Shown here: positions 8,095-64,000 of the stretch, piece by piece
How positions within the stretch are numbered: the first letter of the stretch is position 1
How the letters are laid out: each line of letters starts with the position of its first letter
Assembly (NCBI RefSeq): GCF_000516515.1
Contig: NZ_KI911784.1
Span: 372,001 to 436,000 of the forward strand
DNA: 64,000 nucleotides
Source of the DNA: Chloroflexus sp. Y-396-1
GTDB lineage: Bacteria > Chloroflexota > Chloroflexia > Chloroflexales > Chloroflexaceae
Reading direction: 5' to 3'
Program-made: the position numbers and the translations under genes
The notes under the pieces: generated by a model
Databases searched by the model: none
Told to the model about the DNA's origin: nothing
What the model saw: the letters and a program-made list of their open reading frames with translations, nothing else

Positions 8095-8238
8095 GGCCCT
8101 CACCCCCAACCCCTCTCCCGCGCTGCGGACGGCCCTCACCCCCAACCCCGCTCCCGCGCTGCGGGCGGCCCTCACCCCCAACCCCTCTCCCGCGCTGCGG
8201 ACGGCCCTCACCCCCAGCCCCTCTCCCGCGCTGCGGGA
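8095..8238. repeat. Four 36-bp tandem repeats
   Basis: Four units begin with GGCCCTCACCCCCA at 8095, 8131, 8167 and 8203, exactly 36 bases apart. Each ends in CTCCCGCGCTGCGG. Differences are few (AAC/AGC, CTC/GCTC). They start 17 bases after the bchD stop. The repeats have no spacers, so this is not a CRISPR array. Confidence 0.85.
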
Positions 8239-8990
8239 GAGGGGGGATCTAGTTCGTGAACTCGGTATCGTTAAAGACGCAGGATCGCCACCGCTACGCT
8301 CAACTCCCCCCTTTCTCTCCTCGTATGAGAGCGGAAAGGGGCTGGGGGAAGGTGAGGGCGGCCCTCACCCCCAGCCCCGCTCCCGCGCTGCGGGAGAGGG
8401 GGGATCTGATGGACGCGCCATCGTTGTAAGATGCAGGCGCAGGATCGCCACTGCGACGCTCAACTCCCCCCTTTCTCTCCCCGTATGAGAGCGGAAAGGG
8501 GCTGGGGGGAAGGTGAGGGCGGCCCTCACCCCCAGCCCCGCTCCCGCGCTGCGGGAGAGGGGGGATCTAGTTCGTGAACTCGGTATCGTTAAAGACGCAG
8601 GATCGCCACTGCGACGCGAACCTCCTCTTCCTGTTCCATCTATTCAAGTTATATAAACTCGCTGGGCGCAGGATCGCTACTGCGACGCGAACCTCCTCTT
8701 CCGCTTCCCGTGGAGGAGCGGAAGGGGGGGCTGGGGGGAAGGTGAGGGAGCACCCTCCCCCCTTCCTCTCCCGCAGCGTGGAAGAGGAAGGGGGGGCCGG
8801 GGGGAAGGTGAGGGCGGCCCTCACCCCCAGCCCCGCTCCCGCGCTGCGGGAGAGGGGTGATCTAGTTCGTGAACTCGGTATCGTTAAAGACGCAGAATCG
8901 CCACTGCGACGCTCAACTCCCCCTTTCTCTCCCCGTATGGGAGCGGAAGGAGGAAGGGGAAAGGTGAGGGCGGCCCTCACCTTTCAGGAT
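8203..8990. repeat. Larger GC-rich composite repeats (about 157-bp units)
   Basis: The GGCCCTCACC block recurs at 8203, 8360, 8521, 8816 and 8972. Between copies lie shared segments: GATCTAGTTCGTGAACTCGG, GTTAAAGACGCAGGATCGCC and GTATGAGAGCGGAAAGGGGC. Spacings are 157, 161, 295 and 156, so one interval holds a diverged or inserted segment. Related C/G-rich blocks occur near 9961, 13239, 16990-17160, 24850 and 48280. Confidence 0.75.
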
Positions 8991-30389: not shown

Positions 30390-31361
30390 TCACGTACCCT
30401 GCTGAAAACGATCAAGCACCTGTAAGGCGGTATCGGTATCAGTTATCAACGTATGACAAAGCCGACCACGTATTGCGGCTGTAATCGCTTCGACTTTATG
30501 ATCGCCTGCGGCAATAACCACCACATGCGGAATTTGGCGAATGCTCGGCCACTCCAGTGAAATAATACGTGATTCCCAGGGACACGGGACGTGTTGCCCA
30601 TCTTTATCGTAATACCGCATCAACATCTCGCCGACCACTCCCCGCTCTTGCAATTGCTGGATATCGTGTGGTGATAGCAGACCGACCCTGACGAGGGTCG
30701 TGTCAGGACCAACATGACCAAGACCGACATAGGCAATATCGACTCGTCGCACCTCTTCGAGCGCCTGTCGCAAACTTGGCTCTTGGAGCAAGGCCTGGCG
30801 CGTTTCCTCACTTGCGACTAACACCGGCGCCGACAACGTTTTCAACGTTGCGTTCAGACGCTGTGCTACCAGCCAACTAATCGAGTATGGGTTGGATTGA
30901 CCGACCATCGTACCGGCCAGGTCGCACACTGTCACCGTATAGCGCTTCTTCGGGGTATGAATGTATGGTGCCATACGTGAAACTGTTGTACTCCATCCCA
31001 TCCCGATCCGCAGGTCATTGCGCAAGTGTTGATGGAGATGGTCAGCAGCAGCTTTCCCAACCGCTTCTAAGGTTTCCTCAAAATTACGGCGGCTTTGAAC
31101 AATGAATGCCTCTTTCAGCGATGTAACTGCTAACAAACGTTGCTGTAACTCAAACTCTTGGGGTAGTGGGCGCGTAATCCGAAACTCTACAATCCCCTCA
31201 CGACGCGCTTTTTGCAGGAGTCTGGTCACCTTGATCCGGGGAATGCCCAAACGCATAGCAATCTGGTCATGCGTCAAATCCTCGTGGTAGTACAACCAGG
31301 CGACTACGACCATCAGACCATCGCTGTTCGTCTCAGTAGTACGTGTTGGTGTACGTTTCAT
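30390..31361 (-). CDS. SorC/DeoR-type sugar-binding transcriptional regulator
   Basis: A 323-residue regulator. An N-terminal helix-turn-helix (EDLTHDQIAMRLGIPRIKVTRLLQKARREGIVEFRI, residues ~27-62) is followed by a SorC sugar-phosphate-binding domain with GMGWSTTVSRMAPY, CDLAGTMVGQSNPYS and VGLGHVGPDTTLVRVG. Its ATG overlaps the upstream stop by four bases, so it is made with the operon. The likely effector is a phosphorylated intermediate of the pathway encoded upstream. Its operator is probably the palindrome at 42861-42874; both points are inference. Confidence 0.88.
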   Translation of the reverse strand: MKRTPTRTTETNSDGLMVVVAWLYYHEDLTHDQIAMRLGIPRIKVTRLLQKARREGIVEFRITRPLPQEFELQQRLLAVTSLKEAFIVQSRRNFEETLEAVGKAAADHLHQHLRNDLRIGMGWSTTVSRMAPYIHTPKKRYTVTVCDLAGTMVGQSNPYSISWLVAQRLNATLKTLSAPVLVASEETRQALLQEPSLRQALEEVRRVDIAYVGLGHVGPDTTLVRVGLLSPHDIQQLQERGVVGEMLMRYYDKDGQHVPCPWESRIISLEWPSIRQIPHVVVIAAGDHKVEAITAAIRGRLCHTLITDTDTALQVLDRFQQGT

Positions 31362-32515
31362 TTATTCCTCAAGAGCTGTAGCACGTGCGCCTCGGCATCA
31401 GTCAGAGCCTTTCTTGCTGACTTTTCGCCTGTGAACGCCGCATAGATGGACGGATACATTACGCTTAATATATCACTCAATCTATGCGTGAATGGTAGAG
31501 TCCGGCAACGCTGGAGCAGCTCCCACTGTGCAGGCAACCAAAAGTAGCGCTGAAGATTTTGTGGTGAATATGTGCTCTTCCGAACCGGACTACCGGCAAC
31601 CCGTAGCAGGTATTCATCCATCTGCCGATCTGCGACACGCAACAACCATTCAGCCACCCTGCACCGTATCGAATGGGACTGGTGTGCAGGTAGACCTATC
31701 CCCCATGTTCCATTCCAGGGCTGCGCATATACGCCGGCACGGTATGGTACAACATTTCCGGCTTCGATTGCAGCGCCAAATATTGCCCCGGCCTGTCCAC
31801 CCCACGTGGTCGCTACGCTCACCTTATGCTCCGCAAGCACACGACCAATTTCGAGATTACCATACGTATGCACGTCAGGAGGACAATACGCCTTTAGCGC
31901 AATATATTCTGCCAACGACTCCACTGCCTGTGGCGTTGTGAAAGTCGGGTTCAAATCTGCATCAAATAGCTCTCCTCCGAAGTCCCACAGAAAAGGAAGC
32001 CAATCGAGAAATATTTCACTAGCAGCCGCTTTCAGCGCAATACCGTAACGTTCAGGAGGACGATGCGCATTTCGCACAACCGCGCTCAATTGTGCAGGGT
32101 GTATCACGAGCGTTCCCGGCTCATCAGAGAAACCGCTTACATCTGAGTGGTAAAAGCAGATATGACCATCTGAGAACCAGGGCACAAGATACCACTCGCC
32201 TGCTCGGCTACATTCTGCATATATCGAGGGGAGAATATCATCCAGACCATAACCGGCAACAACTGCTGCATCTACCTCATCTACCGGTAAAGGTGCTACC
32301 AGGCCAGCATAAATAAGAGAGTCGAGCCAAACATGGCCAGGGATGAAAACAGCCTGAAATGGACAGAGGTCAGCATTCAGGCTTGCAAGTAACGTTGGAT
32401 AGTAGTCTTCCCAACGAACAATCTCGATCTGCGCATCTAAATCAGGGCGCTGTGCGAGGAGAGGTTGCAATGCCTCTACTGCCGGATCGTTGGGGCCAAG
32501 TAATCGGATTGCCAT
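31358..32515 (-). CDS. Solute-binding-protein-like protein without signal peptide
   Basis: A 385-residue protein with the shape of an extracellular solute-binding protein family 1 member (ALQPLLAQRPDLDAQIEIVRWEDYYPTLLASLNA, then YAGLVAPLPVDE, WYLVPWFSDGHICFYHSDV, and ATTWGGQAG). The N-terminus MAIRLLGPNDPAVEAL has no signal peptide or lipobox, so it is probably cytoplasmic. The ATG has GGAGGG upstream and lies 40 bases inside the end of the RuBisCO-like gene. It may sense a ligand in the cytoplasm or have lost its signal; it is coupled to the regulator by ATGA. Confidence 0.75.
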   Translation of the reverse strand: MAIRLLGPNDPAVEALQPLLAQRPDLDAQIEIVRWEDYYPTLLASLNADLCPFQAVFIPGHVWLDSLIYAGLVAPLPVDEVDAAVVAGYGLDDILPSIYAECSRAGEWYLVPWFSDGHICFYHSDVSGFSDEPGTLVIHPAQLSAVVRNAHRPPERYGIALKAAASEIFLDWLPFLWDFGGELFDADLNPTFTTPQAVESLAEYIALKAYCPPDVHTYGNLEIGRVLAEHKVSVATTWGGQAGAIFGAAIEAGNVVPYRAGVYAQPWNGTWGIGLPAHQSHSIRCRVAEWLLRVADRQMDEYLLRVAGSPVRKSTYSPQNLQRYFWLPAQWELLQRCRTLPFTHRLSDILSVMYPSIYAAFTGEKSARKALTDAEAHVLQLLRNK

Positions 32516-33666
32516 AAAACTTGCCCTCCTTGCAAGACCGACTCGCGAAAGAGTTGACTCGCTCTTTGCAGGCCCTGTGGATGACGATGCAAATCGCCGC
32601 CGATCAGCAAGATCACGTCTTTGCCATAAGTTTCCATCATTTCAGCAATTCGTTCGATCTTCATCCCACCTGCTGGCGCAGGAAAGATTGGTTTCACATG
32701 CCCCAAAGGTTCACGCGCCGCCTGCGCGATAGAAAGACATTCTTCGCGCGAGAAGGAAAACCGACCGCCAAAATTGGGAAAGATAACAATATCCGCTCCG
32801 GCCAAGCGACCGATCAACCCAAAGAGGACGCGATGAGAAATCCCATTGAACGGAGAAGTAACGAAACTCCCCAAAAAAGTAGGATGATATAATATGGGAA
32901 GAGCAATCTGATCATCGTCTGCCAACGCCTGCATCCGGTCAAAACCAACAATACCGGGGGAAACCAACAATGCACCAGCACCGGCTTGTTTAGCGAAGTA
33001 CGCTCGTTCAAACAATTGCTCGCCAGGAGCAGTCACGTTTGGCGCATAGATGCTTACCCGGCCCGATTGCTGATTTGCTTGTTGTACCGACGCCGTACAG
33101 CGGCTGACCCGTTCACGGTAAGATGAGAATGACTGATTCGTCAGACCATGATCGTCTTTGATAATATCCACCCCACCCAATGCACATTCGTATACTTGTC
33201 GCGATAACTCCACTACTGGCAGACCCATCGGTTTGATCGCTGTGCAGAGTAGTGGACGATCAAAGGCACCTACCAGCGAGCGAACACCTGAAATACCAAA
33301 ACGAGGGCCGCAATAATCGCGCAATAGTGCTTCTGGCAAATGCAAATCCTGCACTCGGATACCGGGTTTAAGACTGATATTCCCAAAAATAACATTCAGA
33401 AACTGGGTAAGCTCACCTTGCACAATTTCAACAGCATAACTGATGCGAACACGAAATGTATTATTATCACAAGCATCTACCTCTTCTATCCGACCAATAA
33501 TTGAGCTACGAATATCATCATCTGGAACTAAGTCGGCTGGAAATTCTATTGTCTGTTCGACACAAATATCTTCAGCCTTTCGCATCACCTCTTCGTAATT
33601 ACCGACAATGTGATACACAACAGAAAAACGTTCACCACTGAGATTTAACGTAGTTGGCGCTAACAT
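32476..33666 (-). CDS. RuBisCO-like protein (form IV)
   Basis: A 396-residue homologue of the RuBisCO large subunit that probably does not fix CO2. The N-terminal domain and the barrel are present: KPMGLPVVELSRQVYECALGGVDIIKDDHGLTNQSF corresponds to the Lys-containing activation motif, but with His where RuBisCO has Glu in KDDE. YAPNVTAPGEQLFERA, HPTFLGSF and GGRFSFSREECLSIA follow, and FPAPAGGMKIERI...LLIGGDLHRHP is the phosphate-binding end. The loop-6 Lys motif of true RuBisCO is not seen. With MtnK- and MtnA-like genes in the operon, an isomerase acting on a 5-substituted ribulose 1-phosphate is plausible (inference). It overlaps the transketolase stop by one base. Confidence 0.88.
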   Translation of the reverse strand: MLAPTTLNLSGERFSVVYHIVGNYEEVMRKAEDICVEQTIEFPADLVPDDDIRSSIIGRIEEVDACDNNTFRVRISYAVEIVQGELTQFLNVIFGNISLKPGIRVQDLHLPEALLRDYCGPRFGISGVRSLVGAFDRPLLCTAIKPMGLPVVELSRQVYECALGGVDIIKDDHGLTNQSFSSYRERVSRCTASVQQANQQSGRVSIYAPNVTAPGEQLFERAYFAKQAGAGALLVSPGIVGFDRMQALADDDQIALPILYHPTFLGSFVTSPFNGISHRVLFGLIGRLAGADIVIFPNFGGRFSFSREECLSIAQAAREPLGHVKPIFPAPAGGMKIERIAEMMETYGKDVILLIGGDLHRHPQGLQRASQLFRESVLQGGQVLWQSDYLAPTIRQ

Positions 33667-34673
33667 TACAGATCCTCCGCTTTACTGGTAGAACGAATCG
33701 GTTGCTGAACGGTTATCTGTACATCATCTTCATCAATGCCAAGAGTTTCGCCCAATAATTGTTCAATACTACGAACCAACGTCAAAGCATCGAGACCATA
33801 ATATTTCATCAAATATGTCTTGCTCCCTCCATGAGCAAAAGTGTCTCGAAGGCCAATGCGAATCAAACGCTTACCTAATCCGGTTTCAGCGAGCGCTTCT
33901 GCGACAGCCGAACCCAAACCACCGATAATGGTGTGATTCTCGAACGTTATTACTCCGTAGGCCACTTGCGAGGCAATCTCTACTACCTCTTGCGTGTGAA
34001 ATGGTTTAAGGGTATTCACATGCACGTGGTACATTGACACGCCAACTCGCTGCAAGGCAGCGGACACCTTTAGCGCTTCCTCAGTACAAATCCCGCTGCT
34101 AAACAGGGCAATATCGCTTCCTATTGAGAGAATACGCGCTTTACCGACCTGCAACGGCTCGGTCGGATCGAACAGGCGTGGAATATCGCCGCGTAATTGA
34201 CGAACATACACCGGCCCGCGAATTGGCTGAATAGCGTCGAACACACTTTCCACCTCAGTAGCATCCCCGGTTTCGATGACAGTCATGTTGGGGATAGCAC
34301 GCATAATCGCTATATCATCAATTGCCTGATGGGTAGCTCCGCCAGGGGTAGTTATGCCGGGTAAAAATCCGAAGATACGTACCGGTAAGTTTGGGTAGGC
34401 AATAGACATCGCAATTTGGTCGAGTGCACGTCGGTAAAGAAAGACGGCAAACGTATGCACGAAGGGCGTGAATCCCTCACGAGCCATTCCGCCAGCAAAG
34501 CTCATCATATTCTGTTCGGTCATACCGAACGAATAAAAACGATCTGGATATGTATCACGAAACAGATCAACTTCAGTCGAGCTTGTTAGATCGGCAGAGA
34601 ACACCACGACTTCAGGTTTATCCTTTGCCCACTCGACTAGCTTACGAGCATGTACTCGCGACTCAAGCACCAT
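33666..34673 (-). CDS. Transketolase, C-terminal section
   Basis: A 335-residue protein corresponding to the pyrimidine-binding and C-terminal domains of transketolase. It contains the catalytic glutamate motif FGMTEQNMMSFAGGMAREGFTPF (near 50), PGGATHQAIDDIAIMRAIPNM and GLGSAVAEALAETG. It overlaps the N-terminal half gene by 11 bases. Split transketolases are common beside sugar operons. The pair needs thiamine diphosphate and would move or release a two-carbon unit. Confidence 0.9.
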   Translation of the reverse strand: MVLESRVHARKLVEWAKDKPEVVVFSADLTSSTEVDLFRDTYPDRFYSFGMTEQNMMSFAGGMAREGFTPFVHTFAVFLYRRALDQIAMSIAYPNLPVRIFGFLPGITTPGGATHQAIDDIAIMRAIPNMTVIETGDATEVESVFDAIQPIRGPVYVRQLRGDIPRLFDPTEPLQVGKARILSIGSDIALFSSGICTEEALKVSAALQRVGVSMYHVHVNTLKPFHTQEVVEIASQVAYGVITFENHTIIGGLGSAVAEALAETGLGKRLIRIGLRDTFAHGGSKTYLMKYYGLDALTLVRSIEQLLGETLGIDEDDVQITVQQPIRSTSKAEDL

Positions 34674-35610
34674 GAATACCTCCGTTCATCGTCATCAAGA
34701 ATTCGCGGTAACGTTGTTTTTCTGCTTCGTCTTTAAAGCGCACATAATGCAGACGAGGGCGCCGCTCCTCTAGCAATGGTATACCCTGACATGGATTGGT
34801 ACGAGCAATGATGAATAACGGTCTACCATCAGGTGGCAATTCAGCAGGAGCTGCTAATGCTTCAACGTCATGACCATCCACCTCAAACACCCGTACACCA
34901 AACGCAGCCAAACGATCCCTAATCGAACCTATCTCCATAACTGTCTCAATCTTGCCATCCGCCGATTGACCGTTGGCATCGATGTAGACGCCAACGGTAT
35001 CTAGTTTGTAGAAGACAAGGGTTTCCACGGCCTCCCAAGTTTGCCCAATCCAAAACTCACCATCAGACATAAACACCCAGTTACGACCGGTATGTCCCTT
35101 CAGCCGACGCGCAAGCGCAATACCGGCTGCCTGACTGAGGGCCTGACCTAACGATCCAGCCATCAGTTCGTGACCAGGTGAATGCTCGGCGCCGATCATC
35201 TCTACAGTACTCCCATCTTTATTGAACATCTCTAACCCCTGCGCGTCCATCCGCCCTACTTCAACAAGCAGGGCGTATAAGGCTAACGCGCAGTGCACCG
35301 GAGAAATGAAAAAACGGTCTAACTCAGGTTTATACGGGCCGTTATATGCAGCACCACTAAAGTAATGTGGATTGGTCTTACTTGGTACACCAGGGAAAGG
35401 TGGTGGAATACGCGGTGCACAACTCTCGCCAATACGCATAACACGAGTGTAGAGGGTAGCCAGAATCTCGGCTGCTGAACATGCCTGACTCAGGTACCCG
35501 CCGTTATTACGGATGGTAAAATCCAGTACCCGACGGCGGATCCCATTGGCAACCCGTTGCGTATATTCAGACCAGGTCGTAGACATTGCTTGCATCCCTA
35601 CTATCCTCAT
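34663..35610 (-). CDS. Transketolase, N-terminal section
   Basis: A protein of about 307-315 residues with the thiamine-diphosphate-binding half of transketolase: IRNNGGYLSQACSAAEILATLY, EHSPGHELMAGSLGQALSQAAGIALA, and the cofactor motif VFMSDGEFWIGQTWEA...DANGQ. The first ATG (35610) abuts the mtnA-like stop; ATGs at 35595 and 35586 both have usable ribosome sites, so the exact start is open. It forms one enzyme with the next gene. Confidence 0.9.
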   Translation of the reverse strand: MRIVGMQAMSTTWSEYTQRVANGIRRRVLDFTIRNNGGYLSQACSAAEILATLYTRVMRIGESCAPRIPPPFPGVPSKTNPHYFSGAAYNGPYKPELDRFFISPVHCALALYALLVEVGRMDAQGLEMFNKDGSTVEMIGAEHSPGHELMAGSLGQALSQAAGIALARRLKGHTGRNWVFMSDGEFWIGQTWEAVETLVFYKLDTVGVYIDANGQSADGKIETVMEIGSIRDRLAAFGVRVFEVDGHDVEALAAPAELPPDGRPLFIIARTNPCQGIPLLEERRPRLHYVRFKDEAEKQRYREFLMTMNGGIHGA

Positions 35611-36663
35611 CTATCTGTTATCTGTCCCCATCAAGCGAGGAAGGCTCTCGGTAAAGGGTGGGTAGGCAACACCTTTTTCCGTAATAATTGCAGTGATAAG
35701 GTCGGCTGGGGTGACATCAAAAGCATAATTCAACACTGGCGATCCTTCTGGTACCACTCGTTCCGCTCCCACATGCGTAATTTCCTCTGCATCCCGTTCC
35801 TCAATAGGAATGTCATCGCCGCAACGAATGCTCATATCAATCGTACTGGTTGGAGCAGCTACATAGAACGGGACACCGTGTGCTTTGGCAACTAGCGCCA
35901 GGTTATAGGTACCAATTTTGTTCGCCGTATCACCATTGGCCGCAATACGGTCAGCGCCGACGACACACAGATCGATACCGATCTTCCTCATTACGAAACC
36001 TGAAGCTCCATCAACTATAACCGTATGCGGAATCCCTAACTGATTCAATTCCCACGCCGACAGTTTAGCACCCTGTAATCGTGGACGGGTCTCATCCAGG
36101 TAAGCGTGAACTTGTTTGCCACTTTCGTGAGCAATCCGAATAATACCGAGAGCAGTACCGTAATCTACTGTCGCTAGGCTCCCTGTGTTGCAATGATGTA
36201 GAATCTTGGCGGGGTTGGGAATAAGTGGCTGAGCATTCAGACCAATCTGTTTATTAGCCTGAATATCCTCTGCTGCAATTGCATGGGCTTCGCGGAGAAT
36301 AATGTCACGAAGCGCGTCAGGGGTTAAATCGCGACTAGCACGAACCTTGTCCATTACTCGCTGGATAGCCCAGAAGAGATTGACCGCAGTTGGACGCGAG
36401 GCACGTAGCAGTTCAGCAGCCCGCTCAACTTCCCGAACAATATCCGTTGTCCGTTGAGCAGTAGAATGTAAAGCAGCTAATGCCAGACCATAAGCTGCTG
36501 CCGCACCAATTGCCGGCGCACCGCGCACAACCATAGTACGAATCGCCTCCGCGACCATTTGTGGATCGCGTAGTTCGAGATAGACCGTTTCCGCCGGTAG
36601 CTTGCGCTGATCGAGTAGCCGCAAAGCATTATCTTGCCACTCAATACTACGAAATGTTGTCAT
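35611..36663 (-). CDS. mtnA: S-methyl-5-thioribose-1-phosphate isomerase-like protein (MtnA)
   Basis: A 350-residue aldose-1-phosphate/ketose isomerase of the MtnA family. MTTFRSIEWQDNALRLLDQRKLP is the typical start (36663, AAGG upstream); a longer frame to 36726 overlaps mtnK. The catalytic Cys is in HHCNTGSLATVDYGTALG (near 158) and the Asp in VGADRIAANGDTANKIGTY (near 238). It converts 5-methylthioribose 1-phosphate or a related 5-deoxy sugar phosphate into the ribulose 1-phosphate. Length is normal. Confidence 0.9.
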   Translation of the reverse strand: MTTFRSIEWQDNALRLLDQRKLPAETVYLELRDPQMVAEAIRTMVVRGAPAIGAAAAYGLALAALHSTAQRTTDIVREVERAAELLRASRPTAVNLFWAIQRVMDKVRASRDLTPDALRDIILREAHAIAAEDIQANKQIGLNAQPLIPNPAKILHHCNTGSLATVDYGTALGIIRIAHESGKQVHAYLDETRPRLQGAKLSAWELNQLGIPHTVIVDGASGFVMRKIGIDLCVVGADRIAANGDTANKIGTYNLALVAKAHGVPFYVAAPTSTIDMSIRCGDDIPIEERDAEEITHVGAERVVPEGSPVLNYAFDVTPADLITAIITEKGVAYPPFTESLPRLMGTDNR

Positions 36664-36691
36664 AGCGCTACCCTTGTTCTTGCATAATCGT

Positions 36692-37912
36692 CTAAAGCGA
36701 GGGACGTGCTGATACGAGCATATCAACAGCCTGACGAATATCTGTTACACGATGCCGCTGCTTCAACCAGGAAATAGCGATATTTAACCCCAAACTTTCG
36801 GCAGTAGCCCGAACATGAGGATCATCGATAGTCCAAAAATCATGAACATGGGCCATTCCTATCAAACGGCGCATCATCTCGGCTGCACCAAAACCGAGCG
36901 TATCTTGCAGCAGATGACGCATATACTTGGCTCGGAAAGCTGCCGAAGGCCAATCACCGTTACCCTGGTTTTCCCAGAGGGTCAGGAATTCCTCTTCAAA
37001 GATGTTCCAGGTTCGCACAATCAGATCGGCCAACCATTGGCGATAAGCAGCTCGTTTGGTGTCGTCTTTTGCATGGTATTCCTGAGCAGCATAAGAAAGT
37101 GCCAGATTACCGAGATAAGAACCGATATCGTGACCTATTGGCCCAAAGAATGCGAATTCAGGATCGACAACTTTGGTTTCTTGCACGTTCAGCATAATTG
37201 ATCCAGTATGCAAATCGTTATGGATCAGCGCCTGAGCGTGGGTCATGTAGCGCTCTTTAAGCATGAAAACTTCTGAGCGCAGATCGTCATCGGCATAGAT
37301 TGAGCGCACCTGAGTTTCTAACAAGCTGGTGTAACGGTTATTGGGATGCTCGATATATGGCTGGGTAAAGACCAAATCTTCTTGAACCTTACAAAGCACC
37401 GGATTGATAAATCGTGGTACCAACGCTTTCTTTTCAGTCGAACTTAGATATAAATCCGATGTATAAAAGAGCGTTCTCGCCATAAATACTCCCATGTGAC
37501 GATCCACATAGGGGTACTCAATTTGTTGCATCAATCCTTCACGCATTACCAGATGGTGATTGAGATCTTCCATGATGGTAATGTGACGGGATTCATCATA
37601 GTAGTAAATGACTGGGGTTTGCTCTGGACAATACCGTGCCTGATTTTGTAAGAAATCGTACTCGATACGAGAACGATCTACAGGCATCTTGAAATCGGGA
37701 TAGCGCCACGCATACGGCAGTGCTTGCTTCACAATAACGCTTTTTTGTCCATCGTGCAGTGCCGAAACCCGAAAAATTAAATTGACATTCCCTTCAGATA
37801 TTTGACAAGCCTGAAACTCGGTGACTCCCGCAAATATATTTTGGTAGACCGGTGTCGTCTTGAGATAGTCAACCACTGTCTGAGCGGTCAAAGCGACAAC
37901 TTGCGGTTCCAT
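36692..37912 (-). CDS. mtnK: 5-methylthioribose kinase-like protein (MtnK)
   Basis: A 406-residue kinase of the MtnK family (aminoglycoside-phosphotransferase fold). AAGGAG lies 10 bases before the ATG at 37912. It contains SEGNVNLIFRV (nucleotide loop), VIVKQALPYAW, IMEDL, the catalytic loop ALIHNDLHTGSIM and the metal motif VVDPEFAFFGPIGHDIGSYLGNL, where His stands in place of the common Phe. It would phosphorylate an imported 5-substituted ribose at C1. The following mtnA-like gene agrees with this. Confidence 0.9.
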   Translation of the reverse strand: MEPQVVALTAQTVVDYLKTTPVYQNIFAGVTEFQACQISEGNVNLIFRVSALHDGQKSVIVKQALPYAWRYPDFKMPVDRSRIEYDFLQNQARYCPEQTPVIYYYDESRHITIMEDLNHHLVMREGLMQQIEYPYVDRHMGVFMARTLFYTSDLYLSSTEKKALVPRFINPVLCKVQEDLVFTQPYIEHPNNRYTSLLETQVRSIYADDDLRSEVFMLKERYMTHAQALIHNDLHTGSIMLNVQETKVVDPEFAFFGPIGHDIGSYLGNLALSYAAQEYHAKDDTKRAAYRQWLADLIVRTWNIFEEEFLTLWENQGNGDWPSAAFRAKYMRHLLQDTLGFGAAEMMRRLIGMAHVHDFWTIDDPHVRATAESLGLNIAISWLKQRHRVTDIRQAVDMLVSARPSL

Positions 37913-37934
37913 AGACGTTATACTCCTTCTCACA

Positions 37935-39011
37935 TTAGCGGCGAGTAGTGTAATAGCTCAAACCGAGTGACACAATCAACACCAACCCCTTGATAACGTC
38001 CTGGATATACCAGGGAATATTCATCATTGTTAAACCGTTCAACATAACTCCTACGAAGATTGCACCCAATACCGTGCCAAATACATTAGCACGCCGCGCA
38101 TTTAGCACTGCAAAACCGAAATAGGTTGCAGCGACTGCATCAAGCAAATACGGATCACCCGCCTTTACTGCCCCTGACCCAATCCGTGCTGCCAGAACTA
38201 ACCCACCAATTGTTGCGAGTACGCTACTAATCACGTAGGCCATCGTGCGTACTTTGTTGACATCGATACCTGCTAGGCGAGCAGCTTCAATGTTGCCACC
38301 AACGGCATAGAAGATACGTCCGAATCGTGAAAATTCTAGGAAGATAAAGGCCACGAGGGCGATTACAAACATTATCACAACGGGTACAGGAACCCCACGA
38401 AATACCTCACTCGACAAGATAAAACCCTGTCCAAGGAACAGAAAGTCTGGATGAATAGCACCTTCGGCAATTTCACGAGTGGGGCTCCAGGGATTGGTCA
38501 TACCTTTATATACAGCATCTCCCTTAGTAATACTCATCTGCAAACCTTGCACCAAATAAAGCACGCCTAATGTTGCCAAAAGATCAGGTATACGTAGTCG
38601 AATGATCAAGAACGAATTCAACAAACCGATTATCACACCAACGGCAAGGCAAATCAGGATCGCGAAGTACCATGGCACACCCCAGATGACCATAAGAGCA
38701 CTGGAAAGAATTACTGCCAAACCGGTCACTGCCCCCACTGACACATCGAAGCCATTGACCACCACCGAAAATGTGACACCTAGCGCCACAATGGTCAGAA
38801 TAGAGACTGCACGCAGAATATCGAGCAGATTGTCAACCGAAGCAAAGGCCTGGGTACGAATTGAGAAGAACAGCGAAACTAGAATCAAGGTAAGAATGAG
38901 CCCATAACGTAGGAAAAAGCGGGAAAGAATCGATCCTATATGAATATTGAGTGGTTTTGCTTCCGCAATACCTACTTGTTTTGAAGCTGTAGGAGTTTTA
39001 TCCGATGTCAT
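37935..39011 (-). CDS. Ribose-type ABC transporter permease
   Basis: A 358-residue RbsC-like permease with about 8-10 membrane helices. The family signature VNGFDVSVGAVTGLAVILSS (near 87) and the late GGNIEAARLAGIDVNKVRTMAYVISSVLA (EAA-like, near 237) are clear. The gene lies between the ATPase and the kinase genes on the same transcript. It would import a pentose or pentose derivative. Confidence 0.9.
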   Translation of the reverse strand: MTSDKTPTASKQVGIAEAKPLNIHIGSILSRFFLRYGLILTLILVSLFFSIRTQAFASVDNLLDILRAVSILTIVALGVTFSVVVNGFDVSVGAVTGLAVILSSALMVIWGVPWYFAILICLAVGVIIGLLNSFLIIRLRIPDLLATLGVLYLVQGLQMSITKGDAVYKGMTNPWSPTREIAEGAIHPDFLFLGQGFILSSEVFRGVPVPVVIMFVIALVAFIFLEFSRFGRIFYAVGGNIEAARLAGIDVNKVRTMAYVISSVLATIGGLVLAARIGSGAVKAGDPYLLDAVAATYFGFAVLNARRANVFGTVLGAIFVGVMLNGLTMMNIPWYIQDVIKGLVLIVSLGLSYYTTRR

Positions 39012-39027
39012 AATTTTCTACTCCTCA

Positions 39028-40548
39028 CTAAGCCATGCTATGAGCTGTCTTCGTATGGACGGCACCAATTGCTAACTCCATGACTTGTTGACGAGCAACA
39101 AGCCGAGAATCAAACTCACCAACAATTTGACCATCACGCATTACGAGCACACGATCTGCCAAACTAAGAACTTCATCAACATCAGAAGAAGCAAAGATTA
39201 CGGCAGATGTGCGTGAAAGTTCACGAGCGAGTGCATATACTTCTTGCTTTGCACCAATATCAATCCCTTGAGTGGCTTCATCGAAGAGCATCACACGCGC
39301 CCTCTGCAAAAGCCACTTACCAATAACCACTTTTTGCTGATTACCGCCACTAAGATTCTTTACAGCCATTCCAGGATCAGGAGGTACGAGCTTGAGGCGG
39401 TTAATTATGTGCAGAACATGCGGTATTTCTTTGAAAGGTAGAACAAAACTTAGATAGCTGAAATCACGGATAAAGGGTAATGTGATATTAGTACGAACAG
39501 AATATTCAATCCACAATCCACGATGACGACGGTCTTCAGGGATCAGAAAAATACCGTGTCGAATAGCATCCTTTGGTTGTCGAAAGTGTACAACTTTTCC
39601 ATCGAGAATGATGTCACCATGATCGGCCTTTTCACTACCGGCGAGAATGTTTAACAACTCAGTTTTCCCTGCCCCTGTCAATCCAGTTATCCCAAGAATC
39701 TCGCCGCGAAACGCCTGAATGCTGATATTGTTCAGCCGCTTTCCCCATCGTATATTCCGTACTTCTAGTACTAACTCACGCTCTTGGGTTGGAATACGTG
39801 TCGGAAAGAGATTGCCAGGTCGGGTACCTAACATGGCTTCTACTGCTTTAGACATCTCAAAGGTTTCTCGATTGAAGTGAGCCACTTTCTTTCCGCCACG
39901 AAGAATAGTGATGTCGTCAGCAATTTCTTGAATTTCTGCTAATCGGTGGGAGACATATAGAAATGATACTCCTCTCTGTTTCAGCTTACGTATAATGTTG
40001 AATAAATGCTCTACATCACTTACGCTCAGGGCAGCAGTGGGTTCATCTAGAATTAAAAATGAAGCATTGCGTGACATAGCCCGTGCGATAACCAACAGTT
40101 GTTTTTGCGGTAATGAGAGATCCGCGACCGGTTTGTCTACATCGATATCAAGTTGTAGCTTTTGTAAAATCTGCCTGGCCTCATCATGCAATCTTTTTTT
40201 ACGTACAAAGAAACCTTCTTCAGGGGTAGCAAGTTTCTCAATCAGCAGGTTCTCGGCAACACTTAAATACGGAATAAGAGTTGTATCAACTTCCTGGTGA
40301 ACAACCTCAATACCATATCGAAACGCATCTGCTGGTTTATGTATCGAGATTACCTGTCCATTTAGTTCAATTTTTCCCTCATAGGAGGAATAGTAACCGG
40401 TCAGAATTTTTATCAATGTACTTTTACCAGCACCATTTGCACCTATCAAAGCGTGGACGCATCCACCACGAAGCTCTAAATCGACACCATCCAACGCTAC
40501 AACCCCAGGAAAAACCTTGCCTAAGCCAGACGCTTTTAGAACAGCCAT
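39028..40548 (-). CDS. Ribose-type ABC transporter ATP-binding protein
   Basis: A 506-residue double ABC ATPase (RbsA-like). GAGGAG lies seven bases before the ATG at 40548. Domain 1 has Walker A GANGAGKST, LSLPQKQLLVIARA and LILDEPTAALS; domain 2 has GLTGAGKTELL, IPEDRRHRGLW and the signature NLSGGNQQKVVIGKWL with MLFDEATQGID. The typical pattern of a strong first and altered second domain is present. Confidence 0.92.
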   Translation of the reverse strand: MAVLKASGLGKVFPGVVALDGVDLELRGGCVHALIGANGAGKSTLIKILTGYYSSYEGKIELNGQVISIHKPADAFRYGIEVVHQEVDTTLIPYLSVAENLLIEKLATPEEGFFVRKKRLHDEARQILQKLQLDIDVDKPVADLSLPQKQLLVIARAMSRNASFLILDEPTAALSVSDVEHLFNIIRKLKQRGVSFLYVSHRLAEIQEIADDITILRGGKKVAHFNRETFEMSKAVEAMLGTRPGNLFPTRIPTQERELVLEVRNIRWGKRLNNISIQAFRGEILGITGLTGAGKTELLNILAGSEKADHGDIILDGKVVHFRQPKDAIRHGIFLIPEDRRHRGLWIEYSVRTNITLPFIRDFSYLSFVLPFKEIPHVLHIINRLKLVPPDPGMAVKNLSGGNQQKVVIGKWLLQRARVMLFDEATQGIDIGAKQEVYALARELSRTSAVIFASSDVDEVLSLADRVLVMRDGQIVGEFDSRLVARQQVMELAIGAVHTKTAHSMA

Positions 40549-40633
40549 CACTATGCTCCTCAAGTGCTCCTTACCGGATCATCTACGTGGTGTGGGGATA
40601 CGCCCCACACCACACCAACTATAGCCTAACTAC

Positions 40634-42802
40634 TTACCTACCTGCCAGCGTACACATCCACGGGAACCAGTTAAGCGGCGACTCACCCATAGCCGGCATA
40701 GCCTGGATCAGCTCGTCCATATTGGTGATCTTGTTCGCCAGCAAGAAATCACGTGTGATCAACTGCGGCTGCACCAACAGGTACTTGTCGACCTTTTCCC
40801 CCGCCACCAGGGCCGCCGCCGTCCGTACCGCCAACCGACCCACACTGTACGAATCGGTAGCGACTGTTGCCACCCACGGACTGTCCGGGGCGATCATCAG
40901 TTGGATATCCTCATTAGTGATGTCAACTGAATAGACCCGATAATCTTTCCCTCGTCCTGCTTGCGTGATCGCCCGCACGGCCCCTTTGGCAAACTCGTCC
41001 CACATCGCGACAACGACGTTCGCATTCGGGTATTCCTTCATCGTCGCTTCCATCCGCGTCTGCGTGTCGGCGGCAGTGTTGTCGGTCACGGCGCCAATCC
41101 GCGTCACTTCCTTCAACCCCGGATAGCGCCATTTGAAGTCCTGCCAGATGCGGTCACGCTTGTCGAGGGGCGCAAAGCCACCGACGTTCACATACACCAC
41201 ATCCGCCTGCCCGGCGTGGTCGGTGACAACCTTCTTCGCCAGCAGGAAGCCGATCAGCATATCGTCCTGCTCGATTTCCGGCACTTGCGGGTTATCGACC
41301 ACTAAGTCAAAGGACACCACCTTGATCCCTTTCGCCAAAGCCTCTTCAATCTTGGGCAGCAACGGATCGGGTCGTCCGTGGTCGACGATGATGGCATCCA
41401 CCCCTTGCTGGATAAAGTTCTCCATCGCCGTCACCATCTTCGCCATATCACCACGCGCCGTTGCTTCGAGCAGTTCAACACCCAGCTCATTCGCCATCGA
41501 TTGCGCCCCAGCTAGATACCGCTCAAAGAACGACCCCTCTCCAACCTCGCGTACCAGCGCGATGCGTACCTTTTTGTTTGTAAAGACACTCGGAATTTGA
41601 TCACTCTTGACCTGGCAAATCGGTTGAGAACTCATCTCTCCGCCGGCACCAATAGTAATTTGCGGCATAGAATAGCCATTCCGGGCCAGCACCTTTTCCA
41701 TCCACGGGAACCAGTTGAGAGAGGACTCACCCATAGCCGGCATAGCCTGGATCAGCTCGTCCATATTGGTGATCTTGTTCGCCAGCAAGAAATCACGTGT
41801 GATCAACTGCGGCTGCACCAGCAGGTACTTGTCGACCTTTTCCCCCGCCACCAAGGCCGCCGCCGTCCGTACCGCCAACCGACCCACACTGTACGAATCG
41901 GTAGCGACTGTTGCCACCCACGGACTGTCCGGGGCGATCATCAGTTGGATATCCTCATTAGTGATGTCAACTGAATAGACCCGATAATCTTTCCCTCGTC
42001 CTGCTTGCGTGATCGCCCGCACGGCCCCTTTGGCAAACTCGTCCCACATCGCGACAACGACGTTCGCATTCGGGTATTCCTTCATCGTCGCTTCCATCCG
42101 CGTCTGCGTGTCGGCGGCAGTGTTGTCGGTCACGGCGCCAATCCGCGTCACTTCCTTCAACCCCGGATAGCGCCATTTGAAGTCCTGCCAGATGCGGTCA
42201 CGCTTGTCGAGGGGCGCAAAGCCACCGACGTTCACATACACCACATCCGCCTGCCCGGCGTGGTCGGTGACAACCTTCTTCGCCAGCAGGAAGCCGATCA
42301 GCATATCGTCCTGCTCGATTTCCGGCACTTGCGGGTTATCGACCACTAAGTCAAAGGACACCACCTTGATCCCTTTCGCCAAAGCCTCTTCAATCTTGGG
42401 CAGCAACGGATCGGGTCGTCCGTGGTCGACGATGATGGCATCCACCCCTTGCTGGATAAAGTTCTCCATCGCCGTCACCATCTTCGCCATATCACCACGT
42501 GCCGTTGCTTCGAGCAGTTCAACACCCAGCTCATTCGCCATCGATTGCGCCCCAGCTAGATACCGCTCAAAGAACGACCCCTCTCCAACCTCGCGTACCA
42601 GCGCGATGCGTACCTTTTTGTTTGGATCGGCAAAAGCCAGTGGAATACCATCTTGTGTTGTCGGAGCAGCAGTGGCTGAAGCCGGTTGAGTCTGTTGGGT
42701 TGGGACGGTTGAGGTTTCGGGCGGTGCGGCACAACCAACGAGCGTCAACGCTACCAACACGAAGAGGTTGATGAAAAGCGACAAAGAACGCCCCGTCTTC
42801 AT
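40634..42802 (-). CDS. Sugar-binding lipoprotein with tandemly duplicated binding domain
   Basis: A 722-residue periplasmic-binding protein of the RbsB class. A lipobox (LTLVGC, Cys24) follows the signal peptide. Two binding domains, residues ~60-367 and ~408-715, are almost identical in protein and DNA; a usual binding protein has one. A ~40-residue linker (EKVLARNGYS...SDQIPSVFTN) is probably the original C-terminal tail. The second copy ends early, with WFPWM followed by CTLAGR. The frame is kept because the repeat offset (1044 bp) is a multiple of 3. It would deliver substrate to the ABC importer downstream. Confidence 0.85.
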   Translation of the reverse strand: MKTGRSLSLFINLFVLVALTLVGCAAPPETSTVPTQQTQPASATAAPTTQDGIPLAFADPNKKVRIALVREVGEGSFFERYLAGAQSMANELGVELLEATARGDMAKMVTAMENFIQQGVDAIIVDHGRPDPLLPKIEEALAKGIKVVSFDLVVDNPQVPEIEQDDMLIGFLLAKKVVTDHAGQADVVYVNVGGFAPLDKRDRIWQDFKWRYPGLKEVTRIGAVTDNTAADTQTRMEATMKEYPNANVVVAMWDEFAKGAVRAITQAGRGKDYRVYSVDITNEDIQLMIAPDSPWVATVATDSYSVGRLAVRTAAALVAGEKVDKYLLVQPQLITRDFLLANKITNMDELIQAMPAMGESSLNWFPWMEKVLARNGYSMPQITIGAGGEMSSQPICQVKSDQIPSVFTNKKVRIALVREVGEGSFFERYLAGAQSMANELGVELLEATARGDMAKMVTAMENFIQQGVDAIIVDHGRPDPLLPKIEEALAKGIKVVSFDLVVDNPQVPEIEQDDMLIGFLLAKKVVTDHAGQADVVYVNVGGFAPLDKRDRIWQDFKWRYPGLKEVTRIGAVTDNTAADTQTRMEATMKEYPNANVVVAMWDEFAKGAVRAITQAGRGKDYRVYSVDITNEDIQLMIAPDSPWVATVATDSYSVGRLAVRTAAALVAGEKVDKYLLVQPQLITRDFLLANKITNMDELIQAMPAMGESPLNWFPWMCTLAGR
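40656..41580. repeat. Direct repeat copy 2 inside the binding-protein gene
   Basis: 925 bases that match 41700-42624 at an offset of 1044, with only a handful of differences seen by eye, for example near 40671-40678, 40778 and 40809. Confidence 0.9.
41700..42624. repeat. Direct repeat copy 1 inside the binding-protein gene
   Basis: First copy in gene direction; 119 bases separate it from the other copy. Confidence 0.9.
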
Positions 42803-60180: not shown

Positions 60181-60279
60181 GCTACCATGTGGCGAATTCT
60201 ACTCGCGCTGCTATAGCGTTTCCTCAACGCACGAGTTCATTTCTGGCGGCGCCAACATCACAATGTGGGAGGATCCGGG

Positions 60280-63200
60280 ATGGCGACCATCAGCCTGCAA
60301 GACGCCTATGCACAAGCCAGAACTTTCCTCGAGGCGAACCAGATCGAGCAGGCAATTGGCTTGATCCAGCATATTCTTGAATATCATCCAGATAACCTTG
60401 AAGCGCAACGACTCCTCGGCGAAGCGTATCTGGCGCAGCGTGATCTACCGGCAGCAGTAGCCACTTTTGAACAAGTCTTGCAAGCCGACCCAGAAAATAT
60501 TCCGGCCCATGTGGGGCTGGGCATGGCATACGAGTGGCAAGGTCGGCTTGATAAAGCCATCACCGAATTCGAGCAGGCGCTTGAGATCCGTCCCGATATG
60601 CCTGAATTGCGTGCGCAATTGGTACGCCTCTATACTGAAGCCTGGGGGAGTGAACACGCTGCGCTACGCCTCAGCCGTTCGGGATTGGCCCGACTGTATG
60701 CTCGCGGTCAAATGCTACCACAGGCCATCCTTGAGTTTCGTAACGTTGTGGCTGAACATCCTAGCCGCCTCGATGCATGGGTTGGCCTGATTGAAACTCT
60801 TTGGCGCGATGGTCAGCTTGATGAAGCAGCCGCTGTTTGTCAACAGGTGTTGAAGCAACATCCACAGCTTCTCAAAGCTAATCTGATCCTCAGCGCTATT
60901 CTGCTGAACGATGGTGATCAGCGCGGGATTGAGTACTGGCGAATCGCCCAGCGCCTCGATCCATATCAGACCGCTGCACGGATGTTGTTCGATCCGCTGC
61001 CATCCGGAATTCCAATTCCTGATGTTTCACTGCCAGAATGGAACGAGGCCGAATGGCAAGCACGACGTTCCGCAGCAGCAGCACCAGTACCGGCGACAAC
61101 ACCGGCTCCTGATGATTTCTTCGCCGAAGCTAGTTGGTTAACACCTACAGTACAATCTGCACCGGTAGCTGCCTCGGCTGTTTCGGATGATGATTTGCTG
61201 GCAATGTTGCTTTTCTCACCAACAGTAGCAACCAGTGTTGCCGAACCACCACCATCGGCGTCGGCTGACAGTGATACATTTCTGGATTCGCTTCTTTCAA
61301 CGCCTACGCCGACCGAATTGACACTTGATGAGATTGGGTTGGATGTATCTGGAACACCAGCTACACCGGCCGAACCCGCTTTGCAGCCCTTCTCGCTGGA
61401 AGACCTTGGGCTCTCGCCCGAAGAGATTGCCCAACTGGAAAGCCCGTCGCCCTCGCCATCTGGCGAACCAGAGCTAAAGCCCTTCTCGCTGGAAGACCTT
61501 GGGCTCTCGCCCGAAGAGATTGCCCAACTGGAAGGCCCGTCGCCCTCGCCATCTGGCGAACCAGAGCTAAAGCCCTTCTCACTGGAAGAACTCGGCCTCT
61601 CTACTGAAGAGATTGCCCAACTGAAAGGGGCTTCTACGCCATCGACGCCAACACCAGGGACGGAAACCTTTGATGACGAGCTGAGTGGTCTGCAACCCTT
61701 CTCGCTTGATGATCTTGATTTTAGCTCAGCGACGACAAGTGGGAGTTTGCCGTCAACGTTGCAGCCGTTTTCCCTCGATGATCTGGCCCTCGATGAGGAG
61801 ATACCGGCTCCGCCGGAGCCATCTACTGAGACAATCGAACCAGGGATCTATAGCTGGCAGGAACCATCATCGCGTAGTAGTGGGATTCACATCCCCCAAG
61901 AGCCAGAGCCGAGTGGGCCATCAATATTTAGCAAGCTGCTCGAACGAGCAGCAAACTTGCCACCGGTTGATGAGCCACCGCTGTCATCGGTTGAGCTAAC
62001 AGAAGCCGACGTTGCAGCATATTTCTCAAGTGATGATGTGTCGTTACGTGAAGAAGACGGTTCAGACGAACGTTTGACCGGTACATTCCGCATTCCCAAA
62101 GCAAGTCTTGACGAGAGTCTGGCACCAACTGGCGCTGTGAGTGCACTCAGTGAGAAGAAGGAAGATGTTCCCGCCGAGCCGGAACTAAAGCCCTTCTCGC
62201 TTGAAGAGTTGGGCCTCTCGCCCGAAGAGATTGCCCAGCTTGAGGCTGCCCAGCAGCAGGCGCAGCCCGCCGATGCTGAGCCAGAACTGAAGCCCTTCTC
62301 ACTCGAAGAGTTGGGTCTCTCGCCCGAAGAGATTGCCCAGCTTGAGGCTGCCCAGCAGCAGGCGCAGCCCGCCGATGCTGAGCCGGAGCTAAAGCCCTTC
62401 TCGCTTGAAGAGTTGGGTCTCTCGCCCGAAGAGATTGCCCGGCTTGAGGCCGCCCAGCAGCAGGCGCAGCCCGCCGATGCTGAGCCAGAACTGAAGCCCT
62501 TCTCGCTTGAAGAGTTGGGTCTCTCGCCCGAAGAGATTGCCCAGCTTGAGGCCGCCCAGCAGCAGGCGCAGCCCGCCGATGCTGAGCCAGAACTGAAGCC
62601 CTTCTCACTCGAAGAGTTGGGTCTCTCGCCCGAAGAGATTGCCCAGCTTGAGGCTGCCCAGCAGCAGGCGCAGCCCGCCGATGCTGAGCCGGAGCTAAAG
62701 CCCTTCTCGCTTGAAGAGTTGGGTCTCTCGCCCGAAGAGATTGCCCAGCTTGAGGCCGCCCAGCAGCAGGCGCAGCCCGCCGATGCTGAGCCAGAACTGA
62801 AGCCCTTCTCACTCGAAGAGTTGGGTCTCTCGCCCGAAGAGATTGCCCAGCTTGAGGCTGCCCAGCAGCCAGCGCAGCCCGCCGATGCTGAGCCAGAGCT
62901 GACCCCCTTCTCGCTTGAAGAGTTGGGTCTCTCGCCCGAAGAGATTGCCCAGCTTGAGGCTGCCCAGCAGCCAGCGCAGCCCGCCGATGCTGAGCCGGAG
63001 CTAAAGCCCTTCTCGCTTGAAGAGTTGGGTCTCTCGCCCGAAGAGATTGCCCAGCTTGAGGCTGCCCAGCAGCAGGCGCAGCCCGCCGATGCTGAGCCAG
63101 AGCTGACCCCCTTCTCGCTTGAAGAGTTGGGTCTCTCGCCCGAAGAGATTGCCCAGCTTGAGGCCGCCCAGCAGCAGGCGCAGCCCGCCGATGCTGAGCC

Positions 63201-64000
63201 AGAGCTAAAGCCCTTCTCGCTTGAAGAGCTGGGTCTCTCGCCCGAAGAGATTGCCCAGCTTGAGGCTGCCCAGCAGGCACCAGCCACTAGCGAAACAATC
63301 GCATTTACTGATGAGCCGATTGATAGCCTGCTGTCAGCAGTAAGTTCTGATGAAGGTGATATATTTGCCCACCTGGAACCTTCGGCAACGAGTGGTGAGA
63401 CATCGTTCGAGCTACCCGGCGTTGAACCCATTTCATTCGAGGAATTTGCCAGTCTTGAACCTTTCTCCTTCGATGATATTGAAGGGGGAACCACAACCAG
63501 TAGTGAGCTAGGCATCTCGCCTGAGGAAATCGAAGGCATTGAGTTAGGCAATTTTGAGACAGTTGTGCTCTCGGATAACGAAGAGCCAATGATCGACACC
63601 GGTGATCCCGATCTCAACCGACTGATTCAATTGGGATACCGGCAGGGATATGTCGATCTCACCGATATTATTGCTGTTGTGAAAGACCCCGAACGTGAGG
63701 CCGACCGGATTGAGCAGATCGGCTGGTCGCTCTATCGTGCGGGAATTCAGATTCGTGACGGTGATGAGATCATCGATATGGAGGCAGAGCTTGGCGAAGA
63801 AGAACCGGCAGGAGTATCATCCACGGTATCAGCCGACCTGACTCCATTCGATGAAGGTCCCGCCATCCCCGCCGAGCCGGAGCTGACCCCCTTCTCGCTT
63901 GAAGAGTTGGGCCTCTCGCCCGAAGAGATCGCCCAGCTTGAGGCCGCCCAGCAGCAGGCGCAGCCCGCTCCCGCCGAGCCAGAGCTGACCCCCTTCTCGC
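60280..64000 (+). CDS. Very large TPR protein with tandem acidic repeats (3' end outside window)
   Basis: The frame is open from ATG 60280 (GGGAGGA upstream) to the window edge, at least 1240 residues. Residues 5-225 hold about six TPRs (e.g. QRLLGEAYLAQRDLPAAVATFEQVLQADPENIPA-type units). Then follows a Pro/Ser-rich acidic part in which PFSLEELGLSPEEIAQLE recurs: three 31-residue copies (61387-61620), eleven 34-residue copies (62191-63290) and two more from 63889. Around residues 1108-1165 there is a separate globular-looking segment (LNRLIQLGYRQGYVDLTDII...AGIQIRDGDE) resembling sigma70 region 1.1. Likely cytoplasmic, with a scaffold role. No signal peptide. The antisense frames here are not genes. 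Confidence 0.9.
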   Translation, partial: MATISLQDAYAQARTFLEANQIEQAIGLIQHILEYHPDNLEAQRLLGEAYLAQRDLPAAVATFEQVLQADPENIPAHVGLGMAYEWQGRLDKAITEFEQALEIRPDMPELRAQLVRLYTEAWGSEHAALRLSRSGLARLYARGQMLPQAILEFRNVVAEHPSRLDAWVGLIETLWRDGQLDEAAAVCQQVLKQHPQLLKANLILSAILLNDGDQRGIEYWRIAQRLDPYQTAARMLFDPLPSGIPIPDVSLPEWNEAEWQARRSAAAAPVPATTPAPDDFFAEASWLTPTVQSAPVAASAVSDDDLLAMLLFSPTVATSVAEPPPSASADSDTFLDSLLSTPTPTELTLDEIGLDVSGTPATPAEPALQPFSLEDLGLSPEEIAQLESPSPSPSGEPELKPFSLEDLGLSPEEIAQLEGPSPSPSGEPELKPFSLEELGLSTEEIAQLKGASTPSTPTPGTETFDDELSGLQPFSLDDLDFSSATTSGSLPSTLQPFSLDDLALDEEIPAPPEPSTETIEPGIYSWQEPSSRSSGIHIPQEPEPSGPSIFSKLLERAANLPPVDEPPLSSVELTEADVAAYFSSDDVSLREEDGSDERLTGTFRIPKASLDESLAPTGAVSALSEKKEDVPAEPELKPFSLEELGLSPEEIAQLEAAQQQAQPADAEPELKPFSLEELGLSPEEIAQLEAAQQQAQPADAEPELKPFSLEELGLSPEEIARLEAAQQQAQPADAEPELKPFSLEELGLSPEEIAQLEAAQQQAQPADAEPELKPFSLEELGLSPEEIAQLEAAQQQAQPADAEPELKPFSLEELGLSPEEIAQLEAAQQQAQPADAEPELKPFSLEELGLSPEEIAQLEAAQQPAQPADAEPELTPFSLEELGLSPEEIAQLEAAQQPAQPADAEPELKPFSLEELGLSPEEIAQLEAAQQQAQPADAEPELTPFSLEELGLSPEEIAQLEAAQQQAQPADAEPELKPFSLEELGLSPEEIAQLEAAQQAPATSETIAFTDEPIDSLLSAVSSDEGDIFAHLEPSATSGETSFELPGVEPISFEEFASLEPFSFDDIEGGTTTSSELGISPEEIEGIELGNFETVVLSDNEEPMIDTGDPDLNRLIQLGYRQGYVDLTDIIAVVKDPEREADRIEQIGWSLYRAGIQIRDGDEIIDMEAELGEEEPAGVSSTVSADLTPFDEGPAIPAEPELTPFSLEELGLSPEEIAQLEAAQQQAQPAPAEPELTPFS
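61387..61620 (+). repeat. 93-bp tandem repeats in TPR gene
   Basis: Units start with CCCTTCTC at 61387, 61480 and 61573, 93 bases apart (31 codons). Confidence 0.85.
62191..63290 (+). repeat. 102-bp tandem repeats in TPR gene (eleven units)
   Basis: Units begin with CCCTTCTC at 62191 and every 102 bases to 63211. Each encodes 34 residues. The unit ends alternate between LKPF and LTPF and between QQQAQ and QQPAQ. Two more units begin at 63889 and 63991, so the array may extend past the window. Confidence 0.93.

Follow-up and report, generated by a model that had tools for sequence, protein, structure and literature searches.

Why does a single lipoprotein of Chloroflexus sp. Y-396-1 carry the same binding domain twice, and are its two domains nearly identical by virtue of a very recent duplication or because an old pair has been kept alike? 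The gene lies in a 64,000-nucleotide stretch of the genome, all of which was analyzed and is referred to here as the window. One open reading frame, at 40634–42802 on the minus strand, encodes a 722-residue lipoprotein with two near-identical solute-binding domains of 308 residues, separated by a linker of 40 residues. The homologous block within this frame spans 926 nt at an offset of 1044 and contains 7 mismatches (99.2% identity), which is far beyond chance. The strict comparison of the 924-nt domains also gives 7 mismatches, and a single codon alters a residue (Ser to Pro). Pfam Peripla_BP_4 (PF13407) matches the protein in two stretches, with 268.7 bits for both domains together against a cut-off of 35.1, and with 141.2 bits for each domain by itself. 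The sequence-only reading of this DNA had described an in-frame, near-identical domain duplication within one lipoprotein, its second copy cut at WFPWM and followed by six new residues. This description is borne out except for the word “new”: domain 2 ends in NWFPWM and runs into CTLAGR, and this tail is conserved instead, beginning with a cysteine in all five lineages in which it can be read. The parts of the gene, in protein order, are listed below the entry for the whole.

40634..42802, minus strand: putative twin 5-methylthioribose-binding protein, 722-residue lipoprotein (PF13407 twice; repeat alignment)
42623..42802, minus strand: signal peptide, lipobox Cys24 (assigned by eye) and leader (residues 1–60), unique sequence, GC3 50.0
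41699..42622, minus strand: binding domain 1 (residues 61–368; first in the protein), 924 nt, GC3 72.7
41579..41698, minus strand: linker (residues 369–408) with conserved PIC[QK]V motif and Cys396, GC3 47.5
40655..41578, minus strand: binding domain 2 (residues 409–716), 924 nt, 7 nt different from domain 1, GC3 73.1
40637..40654, minus strand: tail CTLAGR, six residues, Cys717

In the three complete tandem proteins of this kind, cysteines occur in the lipobox, the linker and the tail only, and Cys396 and Cys717 may form a disulfide that closes domain 2. The predicted structure of the linker, domain 2 and tail has a mean pLDDT of 92. The linker block around Cys396 is modeled with only moderate confidence in the full-length protein (mean pLDDT 62), and better when domain 2 is modeled together with its linker (85).

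Structure and sequence searches identified 4RY8 as the nearest solved relative (73% identity, Z 48.8, rmsd 0.9 over 319 residues), which is titled 5-methylthioribose transporter solute-binding protein TLET_1677 from Thermotoga lettingae. Because of this identity to a solved 5-methylthioribose (MTR)-binding protein, together with the operon context, MTR is probably the ligand of the twin protein. The twin gene heads a row made up of the genes below from the ATPase to the RuBisCO-like protein; the SorC/DeoR-type regulator is listed with them.

39028..40563, minus strand: sugar-type ABC transporter ATPase of the same operon, GC3 34.7 (profile matches)
37935..39011, minus strand: ABC transporter permease, BPD_transp_2 (profile match)
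36692..37933, minus strand: MtnK, S-methyl-5-thioribose kinase (above NCBIfam equivalog cut-off)
35611..36726, minus strand: MtnA, S-methyl-5-thioribose-1-phosphate isomerase (above NCBIfam equivalog cut-off)
34663..35610, minus strand: transketolase-like subunit, N-terminal part (profile matches)
33666..34673, minus strand: transketolase/DXS-like subunit, C-terminal part (profile matches)
32476..33666, minus strand: RuBisCO-like protein (best to MtnW models, under their cut-offs)
30390..31361, minus strand: SorC/DeoR-type sugar-responsive regulator with Sugar-bind domain (profile matches)

Homologues of MtnK and MtnA also occur at the related loci L003, L005–L008, L011, L022 and L023; the contig of L004 stops short of that position. 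Thermotogota MAGs have an equal operon order with a single-domain binding protein, and in Exiguobacterium the transporter lies amid methionine-salvage genes (named by eye), again with MtnK and MtnA homologues. Within 30390–40563, MtnK and MtnA are joined to transketolase-like subunits and a RuBisCO-like protein; there are hints here of an unusual route of MTR breakdown, perhaps via a deoxyxylulose-type intermediate. The partner genes differ at L003, where they comprise fused E1, E2 and a cupin (named by eye) along with a RuBisCO-like protein. Between the regulator and the RuBisCO-like gene of the window, 31358–32515 encodes an SBP_bac_1 solute-binding-type protein with no evident signal peptide.

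The age of the doubling can be approached through its relatives. A search over 84,980 species genomes yielded 21 related loci, among which L003 (725 residues) and L004 (740 residues), both from Chloroflexota MAGs, encode the complete tandem protein, its linker and tail included. Two more MAGs supplied L022 and L023, contigs that start inside the repeat and finish in the same kind of tail. In the genome of L023, one contig stops 87 nt into the domain on the leader side, while L023 itself starts 99 nt before the domain end; contigs would break inside the repeat in this way because identical repeats disrupt the assembly graph. The contig name of L023 is of the form k99_.... Single-domain relatives comprise L005–L008 and, by match length, 11 Exiguobacterium loci, of which L011 was read. 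The linker PIC[QK]V.S..IP..F and the tail CTLA.[RK] are common to the tandem lineages and were not found in the aligned single-domain relatives. Since the lineages have linker and tail in common, the doubling is old and precedes the split from two other Chloroflexota lineages. Relatives of the MTR-binding domain were also seen at L009 (3395–5184) and L010 (8044–9618), fused to GAF/PAS-like and STAS-like regions (by eye); these proteins are perhaps MTR sensors.

A very recent tandem duplication in the window strain alone would account for copies that are 99.2% identical, and would agree with the lack of a match at E <= 1e-40 in seven other genomes of the genus (one of them 82% complete). We nevertheless rejected this explanation as very improbable: the two-domain architecture recurs in L003 and L004 with a like linker and tail, and third positions differ between the window domains and those of L003 and L004 at 43–60%. 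That the other genomes of the genus lack it points rather to transfer of the operon. The MTR twin is rare, since the domain search matched 1 of 400 genomes of the phylum at E <= 1e-60, the window's own, and 2 of 82 genomes of the order, the extra one being a fusion protein. An assembly artefact is more improbable still; short reads do struggle with repeats of such size, but the host genome is a single contig of 4,890,986 bases with one such MTR twin locus, the copies are non-identical, linker and tail are unique, and the arrangement recurs in independent assemblies.

Within one genome the two copies differ at 7 (window), 1 (L003) or 0 (L004) of 924 nt, in a comparison limited to three complete tandem MTR genes; those of L003 and L004 come from MAGs, whose assembly may smooth near-identical repeats. 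Between lineages, 174–252 of 924 nt differ, including 131–198 of the 308 third positions (43–64%). By both DNA comparison and tree, each copy is closer to its partner in the same genome than to its positional counterpart in another. In the DNA tree they pair genome by genome with support of 100/98 or better, and a constraint grouping the first domains by position was rejected (p-AU 1e-31, with the identical L004 copies left free). Protein constraint cannot account for identity that extends to synonymous sites. As judged from these alignments, concerted evolution of the MTR domain pair is secure. Four of the seven mismatches of the window pair lie inside the last 25 nt of the domain, and the single mismatch between the L003 copies is at codon 1; such clustering at domain ends would be expected if conversion fades where homology stops.

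We further identified twin binding proteins of other families. Samples of the host genome covered 994,003 bases (sample 1, window included) and 800,000 bases (sample 2), 1.79 of 4.89 Mb, and contained three more twins, of PstS, Bmp and Liv type. The idea that the tandem habit is limited to Peripla_BP_4 was rejected, as the host genome showed no second such twin and does hold these twins of other families. The Liv twin is a mosaic. Its mismatches per 60 nt run 24, 19, 19, 2, 0, 0, 1, 1, 0, 0, 0, 6, 9, 13, 18, 24, 16, 17 and 6, delimiting a near-identical core of 480 nt (4 mismatches over eight 60-nt windows) within homologous edges where each window carries 6–24 mismatches. None of 5000 shuffles gave a perfect run as long as the longest in this twin. 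The Bmp twin shows an island of difference amid near-identity. Gene conversion is the simplest reading of a bounded homogenized tract in an old pair, and a fresh duplication is hard to fit to it.

Twins also occur in other genomes of the phylum. A ribose-type twin in G442 (the genome of L003) and G326 differs at 7–8 of 813 positions within and 154–159 between genomes, with a common linker. Two complete sister genomes from the window's own genus, G001 and G002, share a rhamnose-type twin, likewise with a common linker, whose copies differ at 5 and 70 of 918 positions within and 149–152 between genomes. We term the G002 protein rhamnose-type only, because its NCBIfam RhaS score of 561 (cut-off 342) is summed over two domains. 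In four draft sister genomes the rhamnose-type protein has one domain, which may be a true loss, the ancestral state or an assembly collapse; the linker was found in none of these four drafts and in neither of two genomes without the gene, in assemblies of a kind that usually drop small contigs. G109 holds a further twin with 3 mismatches in 963 nt. A Peripla_BP_4 survey of 151 Chloroflexota genomes gave matches at E <= 1e-30 in 83, and two-domain frames among the matches listed were two (G109 and G002).

These twins bear on two further explanations. Separate recent duplications in each lineage, with identical breakpoints, would also leave copies identical within genomes; we regard them as highly unlikely, given that linker and tail are common across lineages and missing in the aligned single-domain relatives, and that the Liv and Bmp twins of the host genome contain homogenized tracts inside old, diverged pairs. 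A less easily dismissed, though still unlikely, explanation is that repeated unequal exchange, from one to three domains and back, homogenizes the copies in place of conversion. Direct repeats of about 1 kb in spacing and size recombine readily and are readily lost. For the MTR pair, unequal exchange would lead to an identical outcome, and this pair alone cannot separate it from conversion. There is, however, no three-domain protein among the Peripla_BP_4 matches listed, and the Liv core between diverged edges is simplest as gene conversion.

Taken together, we consider it highly probable that the gene encodes the twin binding protein of an MTR importer, duplicated once in an ancestor and homogenized since by recombination, mainly gene conversion. 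The sequence-only reading had offered a very recent event or gene conversion as the cause of the near identity; the latter part stands and the former does not, the doubling preceding the lineage split and the copies having been homogenized afterwards. In the proposed mechanism, the product would be the lipid-anchored solute-binding protein of an MTR ABC importer, with two MTR-binding domains in a row. The twin would go back to a single doubling, in an ancestor common to its present Chloroflexota carriers. Recombination between the direct repeats, mainly gene conversion, would overwrite one copy by the other, and such ongoing overwriting would keep copies alike in one genome while they diverge across genomes. 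Other twin binding proteins of the phylum would be homogenized in the same way. The protein would offer the importer two equal MTR sites on one lipid anchor. The scarce substrate named in the sequence-only reading is thus probably MTR, and its better capture by two domains is plausible. The twin persists over deep divergence even though direct repeats are readily lost, which suggests that the two-domain state is under selection.

The homogenized stretches are also unusual in base composition. GC3 in the two MTR domains stands at about 73, whereas leader, linker and ATPase gene have 50.0, 47.5 and 34.7, and the mean over 25 other genes of the window is 54.2 (sd 3.3). At fourfold sites the domain exceeds the ATPase by 44 points in the window, 40 in L004, 26 in L022 (a value resting on 86 codons) and 11 in L003 (near saturation), while 11 one-domain relatives (L005–L008, L010 and six of the 11 Exiguobacterium loci) range from −3 to +12. 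The G109 domains lie 13–22 points above the four neighboring genes compared.

An excess is also seen in internal repeats within the two samples of the host genome. In sample 1, 12 of 602 reading frames contain in-frame internal repeats under the stricter rule, and 11 can be paired; GC3 is higher in the repeat in 10 of these 11 (mean +15.7, Wilcoxon p 0.019), and random segments of other frames differ by 0.3 (sd 5.2). Sample 2, drawn later, gave 5 of 5 (mean +15.4, p 0.06). When frames that look non-coding by eye are set aside (2 of 11 and 4 of 5), the counts become 8 of 9 and 1 of 1. The frame that runs opposite to this rule is L125, a Uma2-like gene (by eye) with low-complexity repeats (−22.6). 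Among the 15 frames of sample 1 with the highest GC3, 11 have repeats under the looser rule; the others are EF-Tu and three repeat-free frames. Repeats shared between different frames show an excess of only +3.3 in six pairs, many of which are overlapping frame ends. In six twin genes from three genomes, GC is higher where the windows are near-identical than where they have diverged (Liv 73.4 versus 60.2; Bmp 78.5 versus 66.2; G002 rhamnose-type 81.2 versus 73.0); the diverged part of the MTR, PstS and G001 genes is 40 codons at the edge only. In TPR and LTD repeat proteins the GC3 excess is confined to the repeat.

The two EF-Tu genes of the host genome (L103:17202–18407 and L152:762–1967) have GC3 of 83–84, far above EF-G. 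Over 1191 sites, 13 differences separate the two genes, against 121–124 between them and one EF-Tu copy of a sister species, in a comparison that covered three genes, these two and one from G001.

Several repeat arrays were observed as well. A TPR protein at 60265–63999 contains 102-bp in-frame repeats, with about 11 copies at 62176–63276 (GC3 70.0 versus 46.6 in the rest), and a CHAT-TPR protein elsewhere in the host genome (L105:13536–17975) has a 120-bp repeat array (85.7 versus 67.0). Tandem arrays of GC-rich 36-bp and 160-bp units at 8094–8617 adjoin magnesium-chelatase-subunit-like genes (named by eye).

Binding proteins and EF-Tu are abundant proteins, and the high GC3 of the domains could stem from codon usage tied to high expression, or from an origin in GC-rich foreign DNA, instead of from biased conversion. 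We hold this to be a real but minority possibility. Consistent with it, high GC is also seen in the one-domain rhamnose-type genes of the draft sister genomes, GC4 in the ribose-type twins (L042, L068) does not exceed that of their permease, and the three repeat-free frames among the top 15 of sample 1 have no known second copy. Against it, ribosomal genes of the host genome have a GC3 of 58.3 and EF-G 60.9, and GGG, CGG and GCG, which are favored in the domain, are not favored in ribosomal genes (a codon comparison with one genome's ribosomal cluster). Three single-domain binding proteins of the host genome have GC3 of 46.1, 55.7 (named by eye) and 58.6. Codon bias or foreign origin also sits poorly with an excess restricted to the repeat in the TPR and LTD proteins, and with homogenized windows that are GC-richer inside the Liv, Bmp and G002 rhamnose-type twins. 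Expression appears to explain the raised GC3 of the domains poorly. GC-rich sequence might also promote recombination rather than be its product.

For biased conversion itself we see about even odds in the twins. The broader proposal, that many binding proteins of Chloroflexota ABC importers are twins kept alike by continual conversion favoring G and C, so that each twin has a GC island with the same bounds as its repeat, could equally prove right or wrong. If true, twin genes would offer natural, ready-made tests for GC bias in bacterial gene conversion, and part of them would be concealed by short-read assemblies. Each would be its own internal control, with recombining and non-recombining stretches under one promoter in one gene and one protein, which gene-by-gene correlations lack. 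GC-biased conversion in bacteria is disputed: PMC4450053, in the parts available, argues for it, reporting higher GC where recombination is more frequent regardless of codon preference, while PMC8153448 states, in the part seen, that it has not been observed. The former correlates GC with recombination across genes, one gene at a time, whereas the contrast reported here sets homogenized against unique stretches of the same gene. Literature searches on twin binding proteins and on biased repeat conversion in bacteria returned nothing matching among the matches listed, which came mostly from outside subscription journals.

Long-lasting concerted evolution in prokaryotes has been described, in the portion consulted of PMC6053082, for 26 genes, with tuf in Chloroflexi named. 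The likeness to the present case is that copies are closer within than between species, and the difference is that those are paralogous genes, whereas both window copies share one reading frame; neither of the terms “binding protein” and “transporter” occurs in the main text of that article. Compared with 4RY8, the MTR domain has the same fold at the identity given above, but 4RY8 is a single domain where the window protein has two, and its single-domain relatives L005–L008 have no linker or tail cysteines and little or no raised GC. A parallel in architecture is GlnPQ, in which, according to the sections seen of PMC8025302, one ABC importer also has two tandem binding domains, which bind largely independently. 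In GlnPQ, however, both domains are joined to the membrane domain and are unlike each other in ligand specificity and affinity, whereas the window twin is a separate lipoprotein with virtually identical domains and its permease is a reading frame of its own (37935–39011). The twins point to an unusual importer design, two near-identical sites per lipid anchor, which recurs within a single phylum across several families of binding proteins unrelated to one another.
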